The notes under the pieces: model-generated
Told to the model about the DNA's origin: nothing
Databases searched by the model: none
What the model saw: the letters and a program-made list of their open reading frames with translations, nothing else
Part shown: one piece after another, positions 18,048 through 62,159 of the stretch
Layout of the letters: each line of letters begins with the position of its first letter
Numbering within the stretch: the stretch's first letter is position 1
Assembly: GCA_933228675.1 (NCBI GenBank)
Contig: OW121741.1
Span: 41,030,580-41,094,579, forward strand
DNA: 64,000 bases
Reading direction: 5' to 3'
From: Stomorhina lunata
Lineage: Eukaryota; Arthropoda; Insecta; Diptera; Rhiniidae
Program-made: the position numbers and the translations under genes

Positions 18048-19147
18048 CTTATTAAAAATAATTTTTTAATTAAAAACATTTTGAAGAAAATTTACTCCAA
18101 TCTGGTTACTTTTTTCAAGATTTTGGAAAATCGTGCCGCTAAGCAATCTACTGATTTAATATAAGATATACTGTGAAAGTATACATATGTATGTATATAT
18201 GGTAAGGCGTTACTTTAGGTAGAATCAACATATTTTTGAATAAGGAGAAATGAATTATCGATTTGTTATAAGGATCAATGAAAAATGCATGCATAAAGTC
18301 TTTTTTCTTAAATCGCAGATAAATAGTATTAAATAATATAAAAATCTTCTTCCTTTTTTTCAATTAATGTATTAAAATTTATTTATATAAAAAATCATTT
18401 TGTTTGCCATCAAATGTGTTAAAAATAAAAAAAGTCGCAATTATCAAATTTTTAAGCAACCAAACTTTTTATTGTATGCTTATAGTTGGGTAGAGGCCAC
18501 AATAAAAATTTCAAATTTTATGATAGGTTATAACAGTTTAATAAAATATTTTTCCTTTTATAAATTCAATTTTTCCCATTTTAACTTATAGTAGCTGTAA
18601 AACCTATTATAGTTTGTTTATAAATTAGGCTGTTAATGTATATAATAATATCTAATAAAATATTATGTAAAAATTTATATTTATATAACTCTAACTCAAT
18701 AGAAAGTAAAATAAAATAAAAGTTATTTTTTAAACGGTCAAACTCACACGCTACGTGTGCTAGAGCTACGTAGTTCATTTTATATAAAAGCCCAGTATGT
18801 TCTTTATAAAATTCATTATATAAAAGAGCATACTTATATCTATATTGTTTTAAGATATACGAATTTTTATAAAAAAAAAGTCGGTTGCAGAAATAAGTTT
18901 ATAGTATATTAGCTCTTAATCCATTATAAATAATATTATATAGAATATATAAGAATATAAAAGATATTTTCAGTAGCTTTTGTTTGATACCAAAAAAGTT
19001 AATATCGGATATAACTTCTAAAGTTATACCGTATTATTCTTGAAATTTAAAAAGCCCATAACTCTTAAACTATTAGAGAGCACACCAAAATCTTTCTATA
19101 ATTTTTTTTGATATAGACATACCATCAGGTACAGAAAAACCGTTGAT
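18048..19147. other. Non-coding DNA
   Basis: Very AT-rich spacer. A small imperfect hairpin lies at about 18795-18835 (AGTATGTTCTTTATAA against TATAAAAGAGCATACT). It ends at the TTTCGGAG target duplication of the exon-bearing hAT. Confidence 0.5.
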
Positions 19148-19403
19148 TTCGGAGCAGAGAAGCGCAATGAGTATCCGAAAAATGAGTAGAGTTGAATCAT
19201 GATTCATAATTTCTTGTATTCATACTCATTCATACTCATATCCATTTATACTTATATTCATTCATATCCAAAGACGGAAATTTTATTTGTATTTATATTC
19301 AGAAGCACTTACGACGTGTTTGATTCTGACTCTGCTTTACTTCATATATACAGCCTATGCAAAATAAGTATAAATAACTCTCCAATATGAATACACCCTA
19401 AAC

Positions 19404-19744
19404 TTTTTGCAACTCTAAAGCAGCCCTATGATGTCTTTCAGCCTCGTCCCATTGTTGCAGACGACCGAATATATCACCAATACGATGATAAATAACATCA
19501 CGCTTATAGTAGACATTAGGCATCTCGTGTAAAGCCTCGCGATATACGGCTAAAGCTCGCTGTAATTTTCCTTGTTCAACGAAGAGAGCACCTAACTGCA
19601 GGTACGAAGATATTCTAGCATTCTCATGAGTCGGACGATCTCGCACACCAGTACCGTCGACCTTGGAACCCTCTTGCAATACATGGGCAGCATCTTGACA
19701 TTTACCCAAGGCAATTAGGGAAATACCCAAGTTTAAATAGGCCA
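19404..19744 (-). CDS. TMTC-family TPR protein, single exon (partial)
   Basis: The 113 uninterrupted codons encode three tetratricopeptide-type segments: residues about 1-25 (YLNLGISLIALGKCQDAAHV), 46-77 (SYLQLGALFVEQGKLQRALA) and 83-112 (HRIGDIFGRLQQWDEAERHH). This matches the C-terminal TPR array of insect TMTC proteins (Drosophila CG31690/CG4341 type), ER membrane proteins linked to O-mannosylation of cadherins. A good acceptor (TTTTTATTAATAG) precedes the exon with a phase-1 junction. The 3' edge is only a weak donor (GTTTAG), with an in-frame stop immediately after, and homology appears to end right there. No neighbouring exon was found. It lies wholly inside a hAT-like element, so it may be a captured copy rather than a working exon. 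Confidence 0.8.
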
Positions 19745-19854
19745 CTATTAATAAAAATTAATATAAACAAACATAATTAATTAATTTAATCACATTTAAA
19801 TGAAGTATGAAATCTATATTTGACCCGATCTATGAAAAGGAAAAAGGTGGCTTG

Positions 19855-20036
19855 TGCCTGTATATACAAAACGGCGAGAGCCACGAAATGCAAGTCTTTC
19901 GGCTTGCATTTTTTTTGCTTGTTTCAAATACGATCGTCTTTAGGGCCTAAAGACGATCGTATTTGAAACAAGCAAAAAAAAATGCAAGCCGAAAGACTTG
20001 CATTTCGTGGCTCTCGTCGTTTTGTATATACAGGCA
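19855..20036. repeat. 182-bp near-perfect palindrome
   Basis: Arms of about 90 bp meet at TTTAGGGCCTAAA (centre 19945). The arms differ by a one-base length difference in an A/T run and one or two substitutions (CGGCGAGAG against CTCTCGTCG). Transcribed, it would form a long hairpin. It sits about 110 bp upstream of the exon (minus strand) within the hAT. No target duplication is visible around it. Confidence 0.9.
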
Positions 20037-20144
20037 TACGATTGTACATACTAACACGTGTAAATAGCAAAGAGAGTAGAGAATTTTTTTTTTTTTACTC
20101 TCTGGTTTACATTTCATTTTTAAATTTTTTGTTTTCTTCTTGTG

Positions 20145-21694
20145 TGGATGATCTGGATCAGAGAAGAGACTGAATACATTCACAAATATTGACAGCAACG
20201 TATGCATGTTGCTTTTGCATTGCCTACAAAGGCAATAACTTTTTATACAGATGCCTTCATTGATTCACACATTTTCGTTGATTGCTTTTTTATACACTAT
20301 TTTATTATTGCACTGCACGTTAATCAACGAAATAGTTTGATGTCACACTTTAAGTTAGAAAAAATTCGAACCACTCTCTCATTTTTCGTTCTGTTCGCAA
20401 AGTATTCGTATAATATGTCTGCGTTGTTATCAGTGCTGCCATATGTTTTTCTTCGCTTTCCCGCTAAATTATTGGGCTAAAATTTTTTTATTGAAAATTT
20501 TTCGATAAAAATATTTTTCTATAGAAAAATTTTTGATAAAAATATTTTTCTATGAAATATTTTGCTATAACAAATTTTCAATAAAATATTTTTCTAAACA
20601 AAAATTTTCAATACAATATTTTTTTATAGAAAAATTTTCAATAAAAATGTTTTTCCATAGAAAAATTTTCAGTAAAAATATTTTTCTATAGTAAAAATTT
20701 TCAATAAGAATAATTTTCTATAGAAAATTTTTCGATAAAAATATATATTTCTATTGAAAAATTGTTGATAAAAATATTTTTTCTATAGAAAGATTTTGTT
20801 TAGAAAGTATTTTTGTATGGAACATATTTTTCTATAGAAAGATTTTCAATAACAAAAACTGTATACAAAAATTTTTGATAAAAAAATTCATTATAGAAAT
20901 TTTTTTATAATAATAATATAAAAAAATACAATCGAAAACTTGTTTTTAAAACGAACTATATACATATTACAAAAAATTACCAATATTAGTTAAAAGTATA
21001 AAAACGGCAACTCTGCCTACGTTTTTGTTATGATTTCTTCGTACCTTAGCGGTAAATAATGCTAAAAAATTTAAATCCCGCTAACCGATAAAGCACAAAA
21101 GAAAATATACCACTCTGACTTGTTTTTGAATAGAGTTGCACAAACATATTACCTAGTAAACTTCTTACTTGTGTTAAAGAGTTTGTTTATAAATTACTTA
21201 AAACGGATTTATGAATCTAAGGTACCCTATTTTGAGGTCTGTGATTGTCCGCCCTAGTAAAAAATATGTTTTGCAAGTTCAAAACTTGATCTCCCTAACA
21301 CTTTGACGACTTTTTACTATAAATTTAACGATTTTGCATCCATTTCATCTGGCAACTTGTTTCTTTCTTTTTGCCTTTGCCCACCTATACAACTATAGTT
21401 TTGTCTTGTGCACAACTTGTCTTGTAACACAACTAAAATCATTCATAATATTTCGTAAACACTCTAGCATTCACTATTAAAAAATGAATGATTGAATGTT
21501 TTCCTATTGTATTGGTTTGCATTTAGAAACACAAGCAATGCATGCAGTAAATTTCATTATACTCTTATTTTGTGAATATGCATTGTTTCGTCTCATTAAA
21601 ATATTGCGAATTGACGGCAAGCTTTCATTTATGTGTGAATACATTCAAAGCAAGAAAACAGCCATTCAATCTCTTCTCTGATCTGGATGATCCA
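20145..21694. mobile_element. Possible nested TIR element
   Basis: TGGATGATCTGGATCAGAGA at 20145 and its 31-bp inverted counterpart ending at 21694 match at 27 of 31 positions. The interior includes the minisatellite. No target duplication was found, so it could instead be subterminal structure of the enclosing hAT. Confidence 0.45.
20479..20935. repeat. AT-rich minisatellite, array 1
   Basis: About fifteen degenerate units of roughly 30 bp built on TTTTTCTATAGAAAAATTTT plus CAATAAAAATA. The same unit type forms arrays at 58050-59015 and 59441-59802. The right flank shares TTAGTTAAAAGTATAAAAA and CGGCAACTCTGCC with the array at 58050-59015, so array and flank travel together as a dispersed unit. 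Confidence 0.8.
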
Positions 21695-22077
21695 TAGTAC
21701 TCTAAGTACTTTTTTGAATTTATGAATACAAATGGATAGTTTATGAATCATTCATATTTTGAGTTGTGTGAGTTTTAAATCAATTTGCGACTCATACTTG
21801 CTTCTAGCTGTATTTGTGAATCAACGTCGTAGTAAGTATGAGTAACTCTGGATAGTTTTTTTTAAATGACGTGTAGTCATTTATACTCTAAAATGAATGA
21901 ATCATTATAAGTGTCTTAGTATTGATCCATTGCGCTTCTCTGTTTCGGAGGTTAATTAATAAAATGAATTTATGTCGTTTGTATCAAAATTTAAATTGTT
22001 ACTTTGTCCATCTTATAAACGCGATATTGGCACCACTCATAAACAGGTCTTTCGAAATGTAGCTGCCATCTTAAGGG

Positions 22078-23215
22078 TGGATTAGTTGAACTTATCGTGA
22101 GGCTGCCTTAACGGCCAACTTAACGTCTGACTTTAGAACAGTTGTTGAACAACTTAAAAACTTAAGACGTGCCATATGATTTTGACATAAACAAACAAAA
22201 CAAATTATTTGTCGCCTGAACAGTTTGTTGTATACACAAAAAAGAAAAACAATGGATGTGAAAGAAATTTTTTGTGTTTAAATTTTTTAAAATTACTTTA
22301 AATTTTTATATTTTTATTTTTCACTTTGAATTAAATTTCTTAAAATGTTTATATTTTTGTTTTTCACTTTTGCACTTTTTTTCAACTTGTTGATATTTTT
22401 AGATTTGCTTATATGTATTTAAACAGCTGATTGTACAGTGTTGACAGTAGTGAAATATACGAAAGAGTTACAGCGATTTTTAGATCTGTTTTTAATAGCG
22501 GCTTTTTTAAATTTTATGTTTATTAAAAAACAACATATATACAGCAATATTGGGCTCTGCAGAATACATACATTTTAAACAGAGTCTAATATTTTATACA
22601 GAAATCTGTATTGGGTGGGACATTTAGGGGTGGGTCAATAAAAACTTTAAATGTTAAAATTCAAAAATCTTTTTGAAATTACGCAAATTTATTTATAAAA
22701 CTTTACTGGTAAGAGGTGGAATATTAGTTCATTCAGGTGGATGTCGCGGCCTTACCATTAACTCTTCCGAGTTGGCCAATATTGGAACACTTGTTCGAGT
22801 GTATGTGGTAGTAACTCAGCAATGACATCAGAAATGTCGGCCTTAAAGTGCTCAACTGCTTCAGGTTTGTCAAAATAAAACAGCGCCATCTCAAATCAGA
22901 GCTTTTTAAAGGCCTATTGTCATAACCACTTCGGCTATCAAACTTTCGGCTCAATAAATAACATAAAATTAACTTTTTTTGTAAAAAAAAAATTACCAAA
23001 CATATAATTTACTCTGACATTGTATAAAAACAGATAATTTATTAATATATTATATGAAAAATTAACTATGAACATTATTCATGTGAATTATGATATAATT
23101 TCAGTATAATTATAAAACTACAAATATTATTAAGTGTTTTTACAATGTATTTTTCATTTTAGCGTCCTTCCATATCAACATATTGACAACACTCGTGATT
23201 AATGTCACTTAAGAA

Positions 23216-33049: not shown

Positions 33050-34354
33050 ATGGGTGTTTTTTTTTAGAGGTATAGAACTTCGAATTGAAATAAAACACAA
33101 GAAAATCGTTTTAATGTCCATCAATTTGGCTTTATTGGAAGGATAATTTTATGCCATTAATGTTTAAATATGATTTCGGGCATGTGGCCGCCGCGGCTGG
33201 CTCGAATAAAGCCAATTCTACAGGTCCAATTTTCAACTACTTTTTCGAGCATATGGGGCCGTATGTTGGCAATAACGCCACGAATGTTGGCTTCCAAGTC
33301 CCATAACATTTCTGGTTTGTTGGCGTAGACGAGCGACTTCACATATCCCCAAAGAAAATAATCCAGTGGTGTCAAATCGCACGATCTTGGTGGCCAATTG
33401 ACAGGTCCATTCCGCGAAATTATGCGCTCATCGAATGTTTCCTTCAATAAATCAATTGTGACGTGCGCTGTGTGGCATGTAGCGTCGTCTTGTTGGAACC
33501 ACAACTCATCCACATTCATGCCATCCAATTGGGGAACAAAATAGTCAGTTATCATGGCTCTATGCCGGTCTCCATTTATGGTAACTGACTCTCCAGCATT
33601 ATTTCGGAAGAAGTCTGGCCCAATGACTCCACCAGCCCATAGAGCACACTAAACAGTCAGTTTTTGTGGATGTAATGGCGTCTCAAGGGTCTCATGTGGA
33701 TTCTCTTCACTCCAAATGCGGCAATTTTGCTTGTTGACGTAGCCATTCAACCAAAAATGAGCCTCATCACTGAACAAAATTTTGCGATGAAAATCAGCAT
33801 CGAGATCAATCTCATTTTCGGCCCATACACCAAAATCACGACGCATTGCATGGTCTCGCGGCTTTAATTCTTGCACAAGCTGGATCTTGTAAGGTCGCAA
33901 GTCAAGATCTTTGCGCAAAATCTTCCATAAAGTTGATGGACAAAGCTCCAATTGCTGTGCACGGTGGCGAATCGATTCATTCGGGTCCTCTTCAACACTT
34001 TGCTCTACAGCGGCCATTGTTTCTTCGGTGCGCACTGTTTGACGTCGCTGCGGATGCGTATTATCACATAGAGTAAACGTAGTGCAAAAACGATCCATGG
34101 TTAACCGAATTAATTGCTCTGATGGACGATTATGTCGACCATAAAATGGACGGAGCTTGCGGTAAACTTCGCGAACTGAACCATTATTTTCGAAATAAAT
34201 TTGCGCGATTTGCAAGCGTTGTTCTTTTGTCAACCTGTTCATGATGAAATGGCAAACCAAACTAAATATTAATCACTTGACAGCTGACAAAATGGCCGCC
34301 AGTTAAAAAAGTGATGCCAACTTAAAGTTCTATACCTCAATAAAAAACACCCGA
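33050..34354 (-). mobile_element. Mariner-like element, DD41D (rosa-type)
   Basis: A 1305-bp element with inverted termini of about 29 bp (left GGGTGTTTTTTTTTTAGAGG, right end the inverse of GGGTGTTTTTTATTGAGG, both continuing TATAGAACTT). It is flanked by a TA duplication (33048-33049 and 34355-34356), confirmed by the intact host phrase in other repeat A copies. It contains one nearly full-length transposase gene. Confidence 0.93.
33157..34260 (-). pseudogene. DD41D mariner transposase with one nonsense codon
   Basis: The frame runs 367 codons and is open except for a single TAG at 33651-33649, where the family has Trp (context KLTV-stop-CALWAGG), so one TGG to TAG change disables it. The N-terminal third carries helix-turn-helix-type DNA-binding segments (KEQRLQIAQIYFENNGSVRE). 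Catalytic Asp residues are in ILFSDEAHFWL, WFQQDDATCHTA and DLTPLDYFLWG. The last two are separated by 41 residues, the spacing reported for the rosa family. An alternative start is the Met six codons in (MNRLTKEQ). Little decay suggests a recent insertion. Confidence 0.92.
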
Positions 34355-46230: not shown

Positions 46231-47308
46231 TTATAATAAATGTAGTAGACAGTTGGAATTTCGAAAATAGGTTATGGGAAGAAGGATAGAAGGAGTAGTG
46301 TTGGTATTTGACTTCAATTTTCCGATATTGTAAGTGAAAGGGAAAACTTCTGCAAGAAGTAAATTCCACATACAAACAGTACGGCTAAAGAACGAATTTT
46401 CTCTGTAATGTGTTGTTCGGTCTACTGGCCAATCGACCAAGAAGGGTTGAGCTCTAACAGGTTAACGTGTGTTGCGCATAAAAATTCGAGTTCCGAGAAC
46501 AAGTTCCCTGATTTCGGTGGAGCAAATTCCACGATAGAACAGTGAAACACAACCCACACTGCAACGGTGTTCAAGTGAGTCAATAGAGTTAGATACCCTA
46601 CTGTCACCAATAAGCTCGTTCGCCCTCTTCTGTACTCGGTCAAGAAGCTCCAAAATAGACTTTGAAGCACCGGCCCATACATGGGAGTTGTATTGCTTTT
46701 TCGGTCGGATATAGGTGGTGTAAATAGTTCGAAGATCAGCTGGAGTGAAGTATCTCTTACAACGTTTTAGAAAACCGAGGCACTTGAATGTTTCTTTCGA
46801 TACTTGAAAAATGTGGTTAGTCCAACGAACGTCACACTGAATTCTCATGCCAGAACATCAAGAGCGTCTGATTCCTGAATATTTACACATTCCATGAAAA
46901 CAGATGAACTAACAAGATCTGCCATGCGCTTATGCGTAAGCATACAATATTGAATTTTATATTCGCGCGGCCCCATTCAGATATTGTATTTAAATCGCAG
47001 TTTAACGATTAATTCATTTGTTGTCTCATAGCATCTACCTCAAAGAGGCTTGGTCTCTTATTGAATAAATACGAATGGCAAATGTTACTATCATCTGCAA
47101 AAGAGTATATAAGATTGGAAGTTTGACATAGAAGGTCGTTTATGAATATAAGAAATAGTGTAGGAGAAAGAAAAGAGCCTTGCGGTACCCTTGAAATAAT
47201 CTTGAACTCGTTTGATGAGATCCCGTCTACAACAACTCTTATAGTGCCATCTCTGAAGAAGCTCGATATAAATCGAGATAGGTTGTTACCGATATCAAAA
47301 GCTGTCAC
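46231..47308 (-). pseudogene. Jockey-type LINE, 5'-truncated, RT second half
   Basis: Starts within RT (NNLSRFISSFFRDGTIRVVV), followed by RVPQGSFLSPTLFLIFINDL and the catalytic SFADDSN box, then the thumb/C-terminal part (FKCLGFLKRCKRYFTPADL, WAGASKSILELLDRVQKRA) and ends near 46231 with FRNSNCLLHLL. Frameshifts separate the blocks. It is the same family as the minus-strand LINE at 54112-57425, with which it overlaps in the ISSFxxxxTIRVVVDGISS segment, so the two are separate copies. Confidence 0.82.
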
Positions 47309-48266
47309 TATGTAAGGTCAAATACCATGACATTTTGATCAGATTCCAAACGGTAGTGAAATGGATTCAGTCGGATTCCAGAACCCAAAACATTTTGTTG
47401 CCCACCGTAGTGGAACAATGGCGATGGCAATTTAAGTCCCGCGGATGAATCCACAAGGTCACAGAATTTTGCAAACGAGTATACAACTTCCTGCTGGCTA
47501 ACTGGTTTAAAATTTTTAAAAAATAAAAAGGAACCCTGGCCGAAGTTTCCAGATGACGTTAATCAATATGAGTGCCAAACCGGGAAAAGGTCCAAAAAAG
47601 CTCATCGTTAAACAGTATCACGCAAATTTTACACACCAGAACCAGTAATCCATATGCGCTACATTTTGACTGATTTTGAAGTTTTGGATACCGAGCCAAC
47701 TGGTAAGGGCATGGAAAAGAAATTGTAAAGTCTGCAAAACTATGTTTGCCAGACTATGGGGCACTTATAGGCTCTTCCCATATGTAAGAGCGTTTTATAC
47801 CTTCGTAGATTGTATTGGTCCATTTTTTGTTTCTAAAGTCCGACTAAGTGAAAAGAGATGGAAACATATTTTTACTTGTCTTACATCAAGAGCTATTCAC
47901 ATAGAGATTGCAAAACATTTGTCACTGATGCTATGATACAGGGCATTAAAAATTTCGTTAAGCGATGGACCGATAGGGGCACTAATTAAGTGGAAACAAG
48001 CAAATGCGTGTGCAGGGCGCGGTATTGAATGGATGTTTATTATCCCAGCAAATCCATCAGCAGGCAACGCTTAGGAATGTATTAACTTTCAAGTTGAAGG
48101 AAAAAGCTTCTCAAGTTAAGACCTTTCACAGTTTATTAATAGAAGCGGATAATTTAAAAAATTCACGGCAGTGAATTTAATAAATTCATCCATCTCACAA
48201 TCGATAGTTCTGAAGCAGAGCCTTTAAAAACCAACCGTTTTTTTTATTTGTTGTTCAAACATACTA

Positions 48267-48823
48267 CAGGGTGGCCCAAAAGTCGCGAACGGATTTGAAA
48301 AATTAATAACTTCTCTAATTTAATTATTATTATTATTTTTCTTTTAAGGACTTGTAAAATCAATCTGGGAGATTAATTATGAAAGGTTACCACGTTATCC
48401 AGCGAACCAAAATCATAGAACTTTATTTTGAACATCATCAACGATCAATAATTCAAACTCAACGAGCCTATCGTCGTCATTTTAATGTGCGGAATTCACC
48501 ATCCGAAACAATGATTCGACGCTTAGTGACACGTTTTCAGGAACAAGGCTCAGTGAGGAATCTTCCACGAAGCGGAAGACCACATTCTGTTATTAGTAAA
48601 GCAAATATTCAACGCGTTCTGGAGAGTGTTGAGGAGAATCCTGAAACATCAACTCGAAGGCGCTCTGCTGAGCTCGGCGGTTTTTACGCAAAATATTAAA
48701 GGGAATTTTACATCTTTTCACATACAAGGTGCAGTTAGTGCAAGAACTAAAGCCATGAGATTCCCAAGAACGATTAATTTATGCAGTTTGCTTTCCCCCC
48801 TTCGGCCTTTTTGGGCCACCCTG
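48267..48823 (+). mobile_element. Internally deleted mariner-like element
   Basis: 557 bp between inverted ends CAGGGTGGCCCAAAA (15 bp exact), flanked by TA at 48265-48266 and 48824-48825. The BEL/Pao coding text is continuous across the site if the insert and one TA are ignored, confirming the boundaries. It carries only the transposase N terminus plus a short later piece. Confidence 0.9.
48379..48699 (+). pseudogene. Mariner transposase N-terminal fragment
   Basis: The 106-codon frame holds the DNA-binding part of a mariner-like transposase (IIELYFEHHQRSIIQTQRAY, then SETMIRRLVTRF and VRNLPRSGRPHS with the GRP(H/R)-type linker). Similarity stops after STRRRSAELG. A frame-shifted VQLVQELKP follows at about 48727-48757, which precedes the catalytic core in relatives. 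All three catalytic Asp blocks are deleted. Confidence 0.85.
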
Positions 48824-54560: not shown

Positions 54561-56196
54561 TTTTTACACCAGCGGAAGTTGCTAAGGCCATCCGTACAGC
54601 TAAGCCTTCAAAGGCAATTGGCCCTGACGGAATTTCCATGCTGATGCTTAAACACCTAGGCGAGTGGGGAGTCGAGTTTTTCACAGGTGTCATAAATCTA
54701 TCTATGACCAGCCTCACTATACCCAATGTCTGGAAAGTGGGTAGAGTTATCCCGATAACAAAACAGCATTAACAGCCATAACCACTCAGATCGCACAAGG
54801 CTTAAACCAGCAGAGGCCTTGTGAAAGAACGGTCCTTGTGGCGCTTGACTTGTCAAAAGCCTTTGACACGGTAAGCCATGCCATCCTCTTCCAGGACATC
54901 CTGATGTCCACAATGCCAACAAATTTGAAGAGATGGATTGTAACTTATCTGAGTGGACGTCAGTCGTTTGTAGAGTTTAGAGACCAGCGCTCAAAACACC
55001 GTAGAGTCAAACAGGGAGTTCCTCAGGGCGGAGTCCTGTCGCCACTCCTGTTTAACCTCTACCTCTCTAAACTCCCAGCTCCACCGCAAGGCGTTGAAGT
55101 GATATCATATGCAGACGACTGCACGATAATGGCAACCGGCCATAATGTGCAAGACCTATGCGGTAAGGTGAATCGTTATCTCGGTACCATCCACAACTTC
55201 TTCACTGAACGTAATCTGAAGATACAACCAAACAAATCCTCAGCGACCCTATTTACCACCTGGACAAAAGAAGTAAGCATACAACTTGGCGTCGAGATCG
55301 ATGATGTACCAATTCCGATAGTGAACCACCCGAAAATCCTGGGAGTCACACTCGACAGCCTTTTTACTTCGTCAGCACATGCCACAACTGTCGCACATAA
55401 ATTGCGATGTAGAAACAAGGTCCTTAAAGCACTAGCCGGCAGTACTTGGGGAATGGACAAAGAAACCTTGCTGTCTACCTATAAAGCGATAGGTCGGTCA
55501 GTGGCAAATTATGCTGCTCCAGTATGGTCAGCGTCGCTAAGTGATACTCAGTGGAGAAATATTCAATGCTGCCAAAATGCAGCCCTAAGTTCTATTATAG
55601 GCTGCCTACAAATTACCTCACCACATCATCTTCACGAGGAAACAAAGATCCTTCCAGTAAAGGAACACAACATTATGCTATCTCAGCAGTTCCTTTTGGG
55701 ATGTCATCGGAGAAATCATCCAAACTTTAACATCACACAGTTGGCATCTTCCCCGAGGCATTTCAGGAAAGATCTTCGCGTGTATGAGGATAGCATACGA
55801 AGATATGTACATGATCCTTTAGATCATACCTCGTACATGGCAGCATTAAACAACATTCATAAAGACGCCACCAACTCCGCGATTTCAGGTTATCGCATGA
55901 ATGTTGTATTAGGAGGTCGCCCACCGCCCAGAGCAGAAGAAGAAAAGAACCTGCCGCGGAAAACAAGAGTCGTTCTGGCTCAACTGAGATGGAGCAATAG
56001 ATTAAATATCTTTTGGTCCCGCATAGACCGTGCCGTCCCTAACATATGCCCAGCTTGTGGTCAGGGTCCTCATGATACCCCCCACATTTTCAACTGTACC
56101 ACCAACCCTACTTCACTTAGTCCTGAGGATTTGTGGACTCATCCAGTTGAAGTAGCATAATTTCTTGGCCTTGATCTCCAAACAGATCCCCCATAA
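54561..56196 (+). pseudogene. Jockey-superfamily RT with deletion and late nonsense
   Basis: Contains AEVAKAIRTAKPSKAIGPDG, an internal deletion near 54757-54766 that removes roughly 60 residues of RT fingers and shifts frame, then an open run of 440 codons: LVALDLSKAFDTVSHA (catalytic Asp), GVPQGGVLSPLLFNLY, ISYADDCTI (YADD), thumb, and a C-terminal zinc knuckle CPACGQGPHDTPHIFNC. A TAA at 56158-56160 falls where relatives have Glu (context VEVA-stop-FLGL); the original end is TAA at 56194-56196. Otherwise well preserved, so a recent insertion. Confidence 0.92.
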
Positions 56197-56249: not shown

Positions 56250-57479
56250 CATGGTACAAGGTGCAGAAAAGGTTGGCTAATGGACTCGAAAGCATCGAAT
56301 AGCAATGCTTCAAGACCAGTGCTGGAATGACATCCGGCCCTGAAGACTTGTTTACGTTAAGATCCGCTTAAACCCTTTTTACAGCACGAACGCGAAAGAA
56401 TATCTTTGGCATAGTTACAGATACTCTTGCGAGCTTGTGCGGAGGTTGAGTGCTTTCCGTCAAGCGGGAATCATTTGCAAATAATTCAGCCAAAAGCTTA
56501 GCTCTGTCAACCGAGGAGCAGCAAGAATTTTAGTACCAAGACGCTGCTAATACAGAGCTTTTTCGCGTCTTAATACTTAGGTGCATGTATGCCTCGCACG
56601 TTTGTTTTGCAAATCAGTAACTGGATTTTGGTTATTACTCGTATGCCAGATTCTGAAAGCTTCCTCTCGGGATCTGACTGATGGTTTACACATCTGATTA
56701 AACCAAGTTTTTACCTTTGGTTTATTCGAAATGTTTTTTACTGGGACAAACATTTTCATTCCCAGCTTAATAATATTAGAAACCATTTCCTCCGAGGAAT
56801 TGATATTACTGTCGAGGAAACACAGTTTCCAGTTAAGCTCTACCCAACGACCTTTTTCGTATAGATAAGTTGAACGTTTCGTATCTGTTTGCTAAGTGAA
56901 GAGAGCGAAAAAGAGGCGGAAATGGTAAAATGATCGCAATTTCCGAGAGGTGCAAGAACCTTTACTTCATACTTATCAGGGTGTGAAGTAAGGAAAAGGT
57001 CAAGGTTGTTTTGTTGGTGCTTATCAATACATGGAATATGTGTTGGCTCATTCACCAGTTGCGCAAGGTGATTGTGCGCTGCAAATAACTCGACATATTG
57101 ACCTTCAGGAGTTGTGTGGCTTGAATGGCGAAGCCAGGACGAGTTGTGAACATTAAAATCACCAGCAATAACGATTTCACTGCTCGGACAACTCTCGAGG
57201 ATCTTCGAAATTGAATCGGAAAGGGCATTGAAGCCAGATAAAGTTGTATCCTTTTCCGCGTTTGGGCTTCTTTAAAAAAATCCGAAGTACAAAAGATGCT
57301 CCCTGATTCTGAATTTAACCCAGAGACAGCTTAATTCGTTATCATGCGTGTATTGCATTATATATTCGCAATGTAATTGTGTTTCAGTGGCAGCAACCCT
57401 TAGGCACGAATGATGCAGAATTTAGTTGTCAATGGATTAAATTCAAAATCAGGGCACACTATTTGCACTTTGGGTTTAT

Positions 57480-58049: not shown

Positions 58050-59015
58050 CAATCCAAAAAATTTTCTATAGTAAAATTTTTGATAAGAAAATTTTCATAG
58101 AAAAATTTTTAATAAAAAATTTTCCATAGAAAAATTTTTGAAAAAAAATTTTCCATAGAAAAATTAAAAAAAAAAAATTGTTTTGTAAGAAAATTTTCTA
58201 TAGAAAATTATATTTTATTATTGAATCTTTCTAAAAAGAAAATAACAATTAGTAATCAAATCTTAATCTAAAGTAATACTATATAGAGGTTGCCAGAGTA
58301 ACTCTATTTAAAATTTATTCGAACTAGGATTAAATTAATAAGAGAAAAAATTTTGATAAAACAATTTTTTTTATAGAAAAATTTTTGATAAAAAAATGTT
58401 TATAGAAAAATTGTTGATAAAAAACTTTTTTATAGAAAAATTTTTGATAAAAAAATATATAATAATTTTTGATAAACAAATTTTCTACAGAAAAATGTTT
58501 GATAAAAAATTTTTCATAGAAAATTTTTTGATAAAAAAATATGGATAAATTTAAAAAAAAAAATCTATAGAAAAATTGTTGATAAAAAATTTCTTTAGAA
58601 AAATTTTTGATAAAAAAAATTTTCTACAGAAAAATTTTTGATAGCAAAATTTAATATAGAAAAATTTTCTATAGAAAAATTTTTCATAAAAATATTTTCT
58701 AAAAAAAAATTTTCTATTTTTTATCAAAAATTTTTCTATAGAAAAAATTTTGATAAAAAAATTTTCTTTAGAAAACTTTTGATAAAAAAATTTTCTATAA
58801 AAAAAATTTTTGAGAAAAATTTTCCTATAGTAAAATTTTCTATAGAAAAGTTTTTGATAAAAATATTTTCTATAGAAAAATTGTTGATAAAAAATTTTCT
58901 GTAGAAAAAAATTTGATAAAAAAATTTTTGATTAAAACATTTTCTATAGAAAAATTTTTGATAAAAAATTTCTATAGAAAAATTTTTGATAAAAAAAATG
59001 GAGTAGAAAACTTTT
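58050..59015. repeat. AT-rich minisatellite, array 2
   Basis: Some 25-30 degenerate units of about 30 bp (CTATAGAAAAATTTTTGATA plus AAAAAATTTT), interrupted at 58210-58345 by non-repeat sequence. The K/F/I-rich open frame at 58638-58904 is an artefact of the repeat. The right flank (59062-59095) shares TTAGTTAAAAGTATAAAAA and CGGCTACTCTGCC with array 1. Confidence 0.85.
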
Positions 59016-59289
59016 TCTTTTTTAAACGTTAGAACTACACATTAAAAAACAAATACCTATTTTAGTTAAAAGTATAAAAAAACGGCTACTCTGCCGACTA
59101 TTTTTTTGTTCTGTTCTCTTTGTGCCGACCTGTTCTTGTATGAAATCATGGGCACTTGTACTGGCAGTTTTGAAAGGGAGATTATACGTAATGTCTTTGG
59201 ACCAGTCTGTGTCAACAATGCCATTGACATCGAATGAGCCATGAGTTATATGAGTTATACGCTGCAAAGTAAAACGTATTAAACAGCAG

Positions 59290-59905
59290 CGACTACTCTT
59301 TGGCTAGGACATGTTGTACGAATGGATGAAAATACTCCAGCAAGAAAAGTGTTCCAAAATGGTACTGAAGGAACTCGTAGAAGAGGACGTCCGAAACTTT
59401 GATGAAAATACTAAGTTGTGTGAAATCTTTTAAAGCTTGGACTATGAAATTTTTGATAAAAAAATTTTTGAAAAAAAAATATGGATAAATTAAAAAAAAA
59501 AATTCTATAGAAAAATTTTTGATAAAAAATTTCTTTAGAAAAATTGTTGATAAAAAAATTTTCTATAGAAAAATTTTTGATAGCAAAATTTAATATAGAA
59601 AAATTTTCTATAGAAAAATTTTTAATAAAAATATTTTCTATAAAAAAGAATTTTTGAAAAAAAATTTTCTATAAAAAAGAATTTTTGAAAAAAAATTTTG
59701 AAAAAAATTTTCTATAGAAAAATTTTTGATAAAAAAAATTTCCTATAGTAGAATTTTCTATAGAAAAGTTTTTGATAAAAACATTTTCAATGGAAAAATT
59801 GTTGAAATCTTTTAAATTGGAGAATATGTGGACAAGATCGAAGCGCATGGAATTCTAAATATGCTCAACATTTGACCTTCATCAGGTTGTAAATATAGGA
59901 GTGGC
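59290..59905 (+). pseudogene. LINE 3' end (RTE-type), fragment 2, split by minisatellite
   Basis: Left part reads LWLGHVVRMDENTPARKVFQ then TEGTRRRGRPKL; the right part resumes at 59820 with GEYVDKIEAHGIL and the 3' UTR CAGGTTGTAAATA, as in the fragment at 41856. A 360-bp AT-rich array (59441-59802) separates the parts. Confidence 0.75.
59441..59802. repeat. AT-rich minisatellite, array 3, with flanking 14-bp duplication
   Basis: Units as in arrays 1 and 2. TGAAATCTTTTAAA occurs at 59421-59434 and 59803-59816, on either side, within a LINE fragment. This looks like a target duplication and implies that the array arrived as an insertion. Confidence 0.7.
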
Positions 59906-61387: not shown

Positions 61388-62159
61388 CAGAGACCGGAGA
61401 TCGTTTTATTTTTTAAATCCATCAAGTATAAATATCATTGCCGATGAAAATTTATTTTCATTTCGATCGAAAAATAAAAAAAGAGGGATTTATATTTGAA
61501 ATATAAATATCCCTCATGATGAAAATTTTAAATATCTATAACGATAAATATCCGAACAGAAAAATATTAAATTGATTGTTTTATTTTTGAACTTCTGTTT
61601 TGACTTTGAAAAAATAAAATATTTATGAAATTTCAAAATTTTCAACAATGAATGTATGAATTTTTTCAATTTATTGCAATGTTTTGGGACATCGAAGTTA
61701 AAGATAATAGTTCTAATCGGAATTATTGGTGGTTTCTTTGATTTGCGTCGCTATTTCTAAAAAAAATTAACTTTTGAACGTTTTAAACGCACTTAGACAA
61801 CAACCATTTGTTGCCCAAACCCACTTCAATATAAAATTTGCAACAATAATTGAATTTATTGCTATTTAAACATCCTAAAGATGCCTTATACCCGGACAAA
61901 TACAGAAATAAAATTTGAATTTTTTCTATCAAAATTTATTTTCGGATGAAAAAAGATGAAAATTATTTTGAACTGTACTGATAAATATCCCAAACGATTT
62001 TTTTATATTTTATTTTCATCGGATTGAAAAAAGAAACAAAATTTTTGAACGAATAAAAATTATGAGGGATTTTTAATATTTTTTTAAACTTCAATGATTG
62101 TTTTTTTATGGATTTAAACATGAAAATATTGTTTTAAAAGTATTAAAATCCGGTCTCTG
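61388..62159. mobile_element. hAT MITE, 772 bp
   Basis: CAGAGACCGGA at the left and its inverse TCCGGTCTCTG at the right, flanked by a perfect 8-bp duplication TTGGAAAT (61380-61387 and 62160-62167). It contains an internal hairpin GGGATTTATATTTGAAATAT...CCC near 61483 and many GAAAAT/ATTTTC words. No transposase. Confidence 0.88.

Follow-up and report, generated by a model that had tools for sequence, protein, structure and literature searches.

Does a locus in the fly Stomorhina lunata that resembles a hAT transposon carry part of a host gene, copied into it at the DNA level, or does a native exon happen to lie between two sequences that look like transposon ends? The locus lies within a 64,000-nucleotide stretch of contig OW121741.1 (assembly GCA_933228675.1, positions 41,030,580 to 41,094,579 of the forward strand), the whole of which we call the window and in which position 1 is the first letter. 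An original prediction, made from the letters of the window, held that a hAT-like transposon had taken up an exon of a TMTC gene together with upstream intron sequence. Our analysis favours, with a probability of about 0.86, a non-autonomous hAT-like element into which a portion of a host TPR gene was copied at the DNA level and which later received a nested insertion. The features are listed below; the truncation of the exon, the nested element at 20159-21680 and the palindrome at 19855-20036 were absent from the original prediction.

19147-19154: target site duplication TTTCGGAG of the outer element, left copy, an exact match to 21943-21950
19155-19169 (plus strand): 15-bp terminal inverted repeat, outer left end
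19155-19406: outer left arm, 252 bp, with the motifs ACGACGT, TGATTCA, ATGAGTA and ATTCATA
19407-19745 (minus strand): TPR exon of 113 codons (VAYLNLG...AALELQ), truncated; its relatives have 17 further codons and a donor, both absent here
19746-19854 (minus strand): intron-like stretch, GC 0.21, with an AG acceptor at its end; presumed upstream intron edge
19855-20036: 182-bp near-perfect palindrome with two foldback arms
20037-20150: 114 bp that separate palindrome and nested element; may be further intron, part of a hAT arm or filler of another kind
20151-20158: target site duplication ATCTGGAT of the nested element, left copy
20159-21680: nested hAT-like element, terminal inverted repeat CAGAGAAGAGACTGAAT
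21681-21688: target site duplication ATCTGGAT of the nested element, right copy
21689-21942: outer right arm, 254 bp
21928-21942 (minus strand): 15-bp terminal inverted repeat, outer right end
21943-21950: target site duplication TTTCGGAG of the outer element, right copy

An outer hAT-like element with exact ends

The outer unit spans 19155-21942 (2,788 bp), of which 1,258 bp are left when the nested element and one copy of its duplication are taken out. Its terminal inverted repeats, CAGAGAAGCGCAATG, agree at 15 of 15 positions between 19155-19169 on the plus strand and 21928-21942 on the minus strand; the original prediction had described them correctly, apart from a start at 19156 that was off by one. 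With up to two mismatches allowed, CAGAGAAGCGCAATG has two matches in the window, both of them the ends of the outer element, and shuffled sequence gives a mean of 0.07 matches, two being attained in 1 of 100 shuffles. The predicted 8-bp flanking duplication is likewise exact, TTTCGGAG being present at 19147-19154 and 21943-21950 and at no third place in the window. The ends are of the CAGAG type, which we take to be shared with hobo and Hermes.

These properties are those of a hAT element: the target site duplication is 8 bp long and exact in its two copies, and 15 bp falls within the range of 10-25 bp given for short terminal repeats in the part of PMC3942097 available to us. The Hermes target pattern nTnnnnAn, as given in the available text of PMC10368747, is matched by TTTCGGAG and also by ATCTGGAT. 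Together with short subterminal repeats, an 8-bp duplication of this pattern is what the outer element has in common with the Hermes/hobo group of flies, so far as the accessible portions of PMC10368747 and PMC3942097 describe it; as the window element has no open reading frame of transposase length, it is not assignable to that group.

Within the arms, the heptamer ACGACGT occurs in inverted orientation (19311 on the plus strand, 21824 on the minus strand), and these are its only two places in the 64 kb. The arms, 506 nt together, are also enriched in the short motifs TGATTCA (5 of 11 occurrences in the window), ATGAGTA (5 of 12) and ATTCATA (8 of 32), a concentration that is merely descriptive because the motifs were chosen after counting; motifs of this subterminal type reach inward to 19386 in the left arm. 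When the subterminal regions were aligned locally with gaps, the score was 31, which does not exceed the best of 500 shuffles (33; mean 20.2). The predicted subterminal similarity is therefore borne out by the inverted heptamer in both arms, but not by the alignment as a whole. No second copy of the outer hAT family, or of either arm, was found within the window, so that only the ends, the duplication and the motifs delimit the arms.

Eight open reading frames of at least 60 aa overlap the outer unit, the longest of them (119 aa) being the exon's own frame, compared with 612 aa for the Hermes transposase (available text of PMC10368747). A hAT domain was absent from the three of these eight frames that were scanned with Pfam. 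Weak Pfam matches of two other frames in the unit, one to Viral_Beta_CD (E 0.0055) and one to Ndc10_N (E 0.061), fell short of the curated thresholds and are attributed to chance, and an Rfam scan of 18500-22500 returned nothing at the gathering score. Searches of viral contigs with end patterns gave 0 and 1 matches, and the single match, with 23 bp in common with the window, was likewise put down to chance. From its sequence, the outer element is best read as a non-autonomous hAT-like DNA transposon.

Nested and neighbouring elements

A second hAT-like unit of 1,522 bp, itself complete, is nested in the outer element and makes up more than half of its span. Its terminal inverted repeat matches at 16 of 17 positions, its duplication ATCTGGAT is exact, and it contains A/T-rich repeats and no open reading frame longer than 105 aa. 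A common family for the outer and nested elements was considered and rejected, as alignments of outer against inner ends were weak (scores 17-24). When the window was scanned for 10-bp inverted ends starting with CA and flanked by 8-bp duplications, with at most one mismatch and a spacing of 100-6000 bp, four units were found (three with an exact duplication), compared with a total of two over 60 windows simulated by a first-order Markov model.

Elsewhere in the window, a third hAT-like unit lies at 61388-62159, with inverted ends CAGAGACCGG and an exact 8-bp duplication, TTGGAAAT, that also fits nTnnnnAn. A/T-rich arrays of a AAAATTTTTCTATAGAAAA-like unit occupy 20479-20900, inside the nested element, and 58347-59803. 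Pfam reports a DUF4817 helix-turn-helix at 33649-34272 on the minus strand and at 48358-48699 on the plus strand, and nothing for 33157-33648; we presume that the open frames at 33157-34272 (minus strand) and 48358-48699 (plus strand) resemble pieces of mariner-type transposase. Reverse transcriptase/endonuclease pieces (RVT_1, Exo_endo_phos_2) are present at 54745-56160 on the plus strand and at 47009-47317 and 56840-57271 on the minus strand, and these we take to be LINE-type.

The enclosed exon and its relatives

The exon is read on the minus strand from 19745 down to 19407 (339 nt), contains no stop codon and is immediately preceded by ...TTTTTATTAATAG, which supplies the AG acceptor; Pfam assigns it to TPR. 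The original prediction of an uninterrupted TPR exon of 113 codons behind a splice acceptor is thus upheld. A search of 5.8 billion proteins with the exon protein returned 104 relatives, 12 of which (P0001-P0012) were aligned with the window copy. Closest to it are P0001 (90% identity across the alignment) and P0002 (88%). Over its initial stretch, LGISLIALG to ISSYLQL, P0104 from Sarcophaga bullata is identical to P0001 by eye. S. bullata is a calyptrate fly, and P0104 is the one match named as coming from such a fly. No relatives of the exon were found on viral contigs.

By its protein sequence, the exon matches one exon of a dipteran gene. A single relative, P0060, has the database name 'protein O-mannosyl-transferase', which agrees with the TMTC label of the original prediction, and the parent gene is probably a TMTC gene on this sequence comparison. 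Non-transposon host sequence (the TPR exon, 19407-19745) is enclosed by the terminal inverted repeats of 19155-21942 and a target duplication, as in a Pack-TIR.

The 3' break lies inside the exon

In the alignment of P0001-P0012, all 12 relatives go on past the ELQ at which the window copy breaks off, with 17 further codons (PNQVAAHLSYGITLARN or variants), and then diverge. When the 104 relatives were sorted by motif, 14 passed the break and all 14 had the continuation, 87 stopped earlier at PPQ, and three (P0043, P0058 and P0104) fell in neither class; among nine additional proteins, eight continued past the break and one stopped at PPQ. In the mosquito and beetle proteins P0120, P0121 and P0125, the 17-codon stretch joins the sequence of the next exon directly. 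A native exon would run to a donor after ...LARN. The window copy instead reads K-V-stop after ELQ, into transposon-arm sequence that is unrelated to the exon. A six-frame search of the window for the 17 codons lacking after ELQ gave a best score of 31 of a possible 87, compared with 96 for a control peptide that is present.

Judged against these relatives, the 3' breakpoint is inside the exon, 17 codons short of their end, and the native donor is absent. The original prediction had placed the capture boundary at or next to the exon end, with GTTTAG as a weak donor. As the break is inside the exon, GTTTAG is not the donor of the gene, and the complete exon is not carried.

A presumed intron edge on the 5' side

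Upstream of the exon, 7 of the 12 aligned relatives extend without aligning to the window, and the other 5 start at the exon. In P0118 and P0119 an open intron, about 31 residues long in the former and 26 in the latter, separates the preceding exon (...FRPNLA) from VAYLNLG, and in P0118 and P0008 about 23 and 22 residues separate LARN from the next exon; such reading through introns in proteins is biased to relatives with short open introns. Neighbouring TMTC exons outside the element, which the original prediction had named as evidence that would count against it, were sought upstream and downstream across the 64 kb with a set of probes that included sequences of relatives, and none were found. 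A match of P0055 to 11254-11144 (E 0.004, 38% over 37 aa) involves the part of P0055 before its exon, which we read as intron, and was set aside; every other match that lay beyond the exon and its upstream edge had an E value of at least 0.07 and was taken as chance.

Between the presumed intron edge and the nested element lies the palindrome, whose outer arms are 98% complementary and whose inner arms surround a 1-nt centre; its predicted DNA fold has an energy of -107 kcal/mol (z -26.7). It has no clear target duplication by eye and no further copy in the window, and may represent a foldback MITE or have arisen during repair. The 114-bp stretch beyond it likewise has no second copy in the window.

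Taken together, the window contains an isolated piece of the gene that retains an intron edge on its 5' side. This is what a copy made at the DNA level would show, in line with the original prediction of a capture within a hAT-like unit; an RNA-derived copy would have the preceding exon at that place.

State of the captured copy

Private amino-acid changes were more numerous in the window copy than in its nearest relative in all 16 three-way comparisons, in which P0001 and P0002 were each set against eight outgroups (P0012 and P0008 were excluded from the rate comparisons). The difference reached p<0.05 in 2 of the 16, and when P0118 served as outgroup one pairing was equal, at 4 to 4. Given this tie and the non-independence of the outgroups, the signal is weak. 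In the tree, the tip of the window copy has a length of 0.078, compared with 0.008 and 0.026, and four of the ten inner branches have low support (drawn open). These comparisons give a weak hint of relaxed constraint on the window copy. Selection, too, would keep the frame open, but nine random substitutions would leave it stop-free with a probability of 0.60, so that selection need not be invoked at this divergence and the openness is no proof of it. We infer that the captured copy is a decaying fragment.

On the minus strand 3' of the exon, in the left arm of the outer element, GTAAGT is present at 19312 and AATAAA at 19287, motifs that may occur by chance in such A/T-rich DNA. It would be a long shot that the unit is still mobile and multicopy and acts as a portable terminal-exon trap for introns. 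If it were so, a unit inserted into an intron in the suitable orientation would, through its acceptor, splice upstream exons onto the 113 TPR codons, followed by K-V-stop and, about 110 nt beyond and within the transposon arm, by the AATAAA at 19287; the outcome would be truncated TPR fusions in host genes.

Origin of the composite element

The capture reading is supported by the enclosure of the exon by exact terminal inverted repeats and an exact 8-bp duplication, which are rare by chance. In the sequence of events that we propose, a break would have occurred inside a resident non-autonomous hAT element, and its repair would have switched template to a host gene (gap filling), copying a partial exon and the upstream intron edge; the transposon ends and target duplication would have stayed intact through this repair. 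The second hAT-like element inserted into the outer one later, and this nesting is shown by the sequence. Repair by template switching is the probable route, and the parent gene presumably lies elsewhere in the same genome. The window, which reaches 19 kb beyond one end of the element and 42 kb beyond the other, yielded no second copy of the exon and no parent gene.

Two other accounts would do away with DNA-level capture. The exon could be native and in place, its hAT-like ends and duplication being coincidental, and its open frame, correctly positioned acceptor and 90% identity to the nearest relative would all be expected of such an exon; yet perfect hAT-like units of this kind are rare by chance, and the exon ends early, its donor is lost, and the probes used located no adjacent exons in the window. 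We therefore reject this account as exceedingly unlikely. Only marginally less implausible is a processed, RNA-derived copy within a hAT element, which would accord with the fact that the recognisable part is the coding sequence of one exon only; here it is the intron edge that decides, as VAYLNLG is preceded by an A/T-rich stretch ending in AG and not by the ...RPNLA of the relatives.

Two further accounts are versions of the capture reading, so that their odds overlap with it. The exon might have been captured at another locus, by fork switching, and the unit that bears it might have reached its present site as a whole by transposition, in which case several copies with different target duplications would exist. 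A recent insertion of the whole unit would leave ends and a duplication as exact as those observed, and multicopy Pack-TIRs formed in this way are described in the accessible text of Tan et al. 2021 (PMC8277862); moreover, no parent copy was found in the window, whereas 56.9% of 281 unique Pack-TIRs in that text lie within 15 kb of theirs. Multicopy cases nevertheless number only four (1.4%) in the survey as available to us, and the window has no other copy of the unit, so that we hold this history to be possible though doubtful. It is less probable still, and in our view unlikely, that the full exon, its donor and downstream intron were carried first and that a later internal deletion removed the 3' end of the exon. 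Such a deletion would also leave a break inside coding sequence, but it requires an additional step, the arms are alike in length (252 and 254 bp), and subterminal-type motifs continue in the left arm up to 19386. Direct capture of the partial exon by repair of the resident element remains our preferred reading.

Relation to known gene-capturing transposons

The capture of gene fragments by transposons with terminal inverted repeats is already known from plants and, since the catalogue of Tan et al. 2021, from animals (PMC8277862, accessible text). That catalogue records 370 Pack-TIRs in 100 animal genomes, 208 of them in hAT elements and most of them single-copy, which makes the statement in the original prediction that such capture is documented mainly in plants outdated. 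In the portion of PMC8277862 available to us, single-copy Pack-TIRs are attributed to gap filling, and microhomology at one or both breakpoints is given for 67.6% of Pack-TIRs and is thus not obligatory. For insects, the same portion lists no Pack-TIR from reference genomes and a single family, Ssk-FB4, from Drosophila populations.

The window element resembles the animal Pack-hAT elements of PMC8277862, as far as the accessible text describes them, in that a fragment of a host gene, copied at the DNA level, lies between hAT ends with a target duplication; it differs from them in its insect host, as none came from insect reference genomes, and in the nested hAT-like element inside the outer one. 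With Ssk-FB4 of Drosophila melanogaster populations it shares the presence of host coding sequence on a fly DNA transposon. In the available description (PMC8277862), Ssk-FB4 involves an FB4 element, is multicopy and has detected peptides, whereas the window element is seen in one copy with a truncated exon. The Pack-TYPE and Pack-MULE elements, as presented in the part of PMC8903248 available to us, are similar in that coding DNA has been captured by non-autonomous DNA transposons, but their hosts are plants. Among the titles and opening lines of abstracts that made up our literature search, no insect hAT element carrying a host exon was found.

By itself, the outer element offers one truncated copy, and a function of its exon would be only hypothetical on this sequence. 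A clean case from a fly, in which an intron edge is kept, the break maps within the exon and a hAT-like element was nested later, would extend this kind of capture to insect hAT elements, and would show that it is worthwhile to screen fly genomes rich in transposons.
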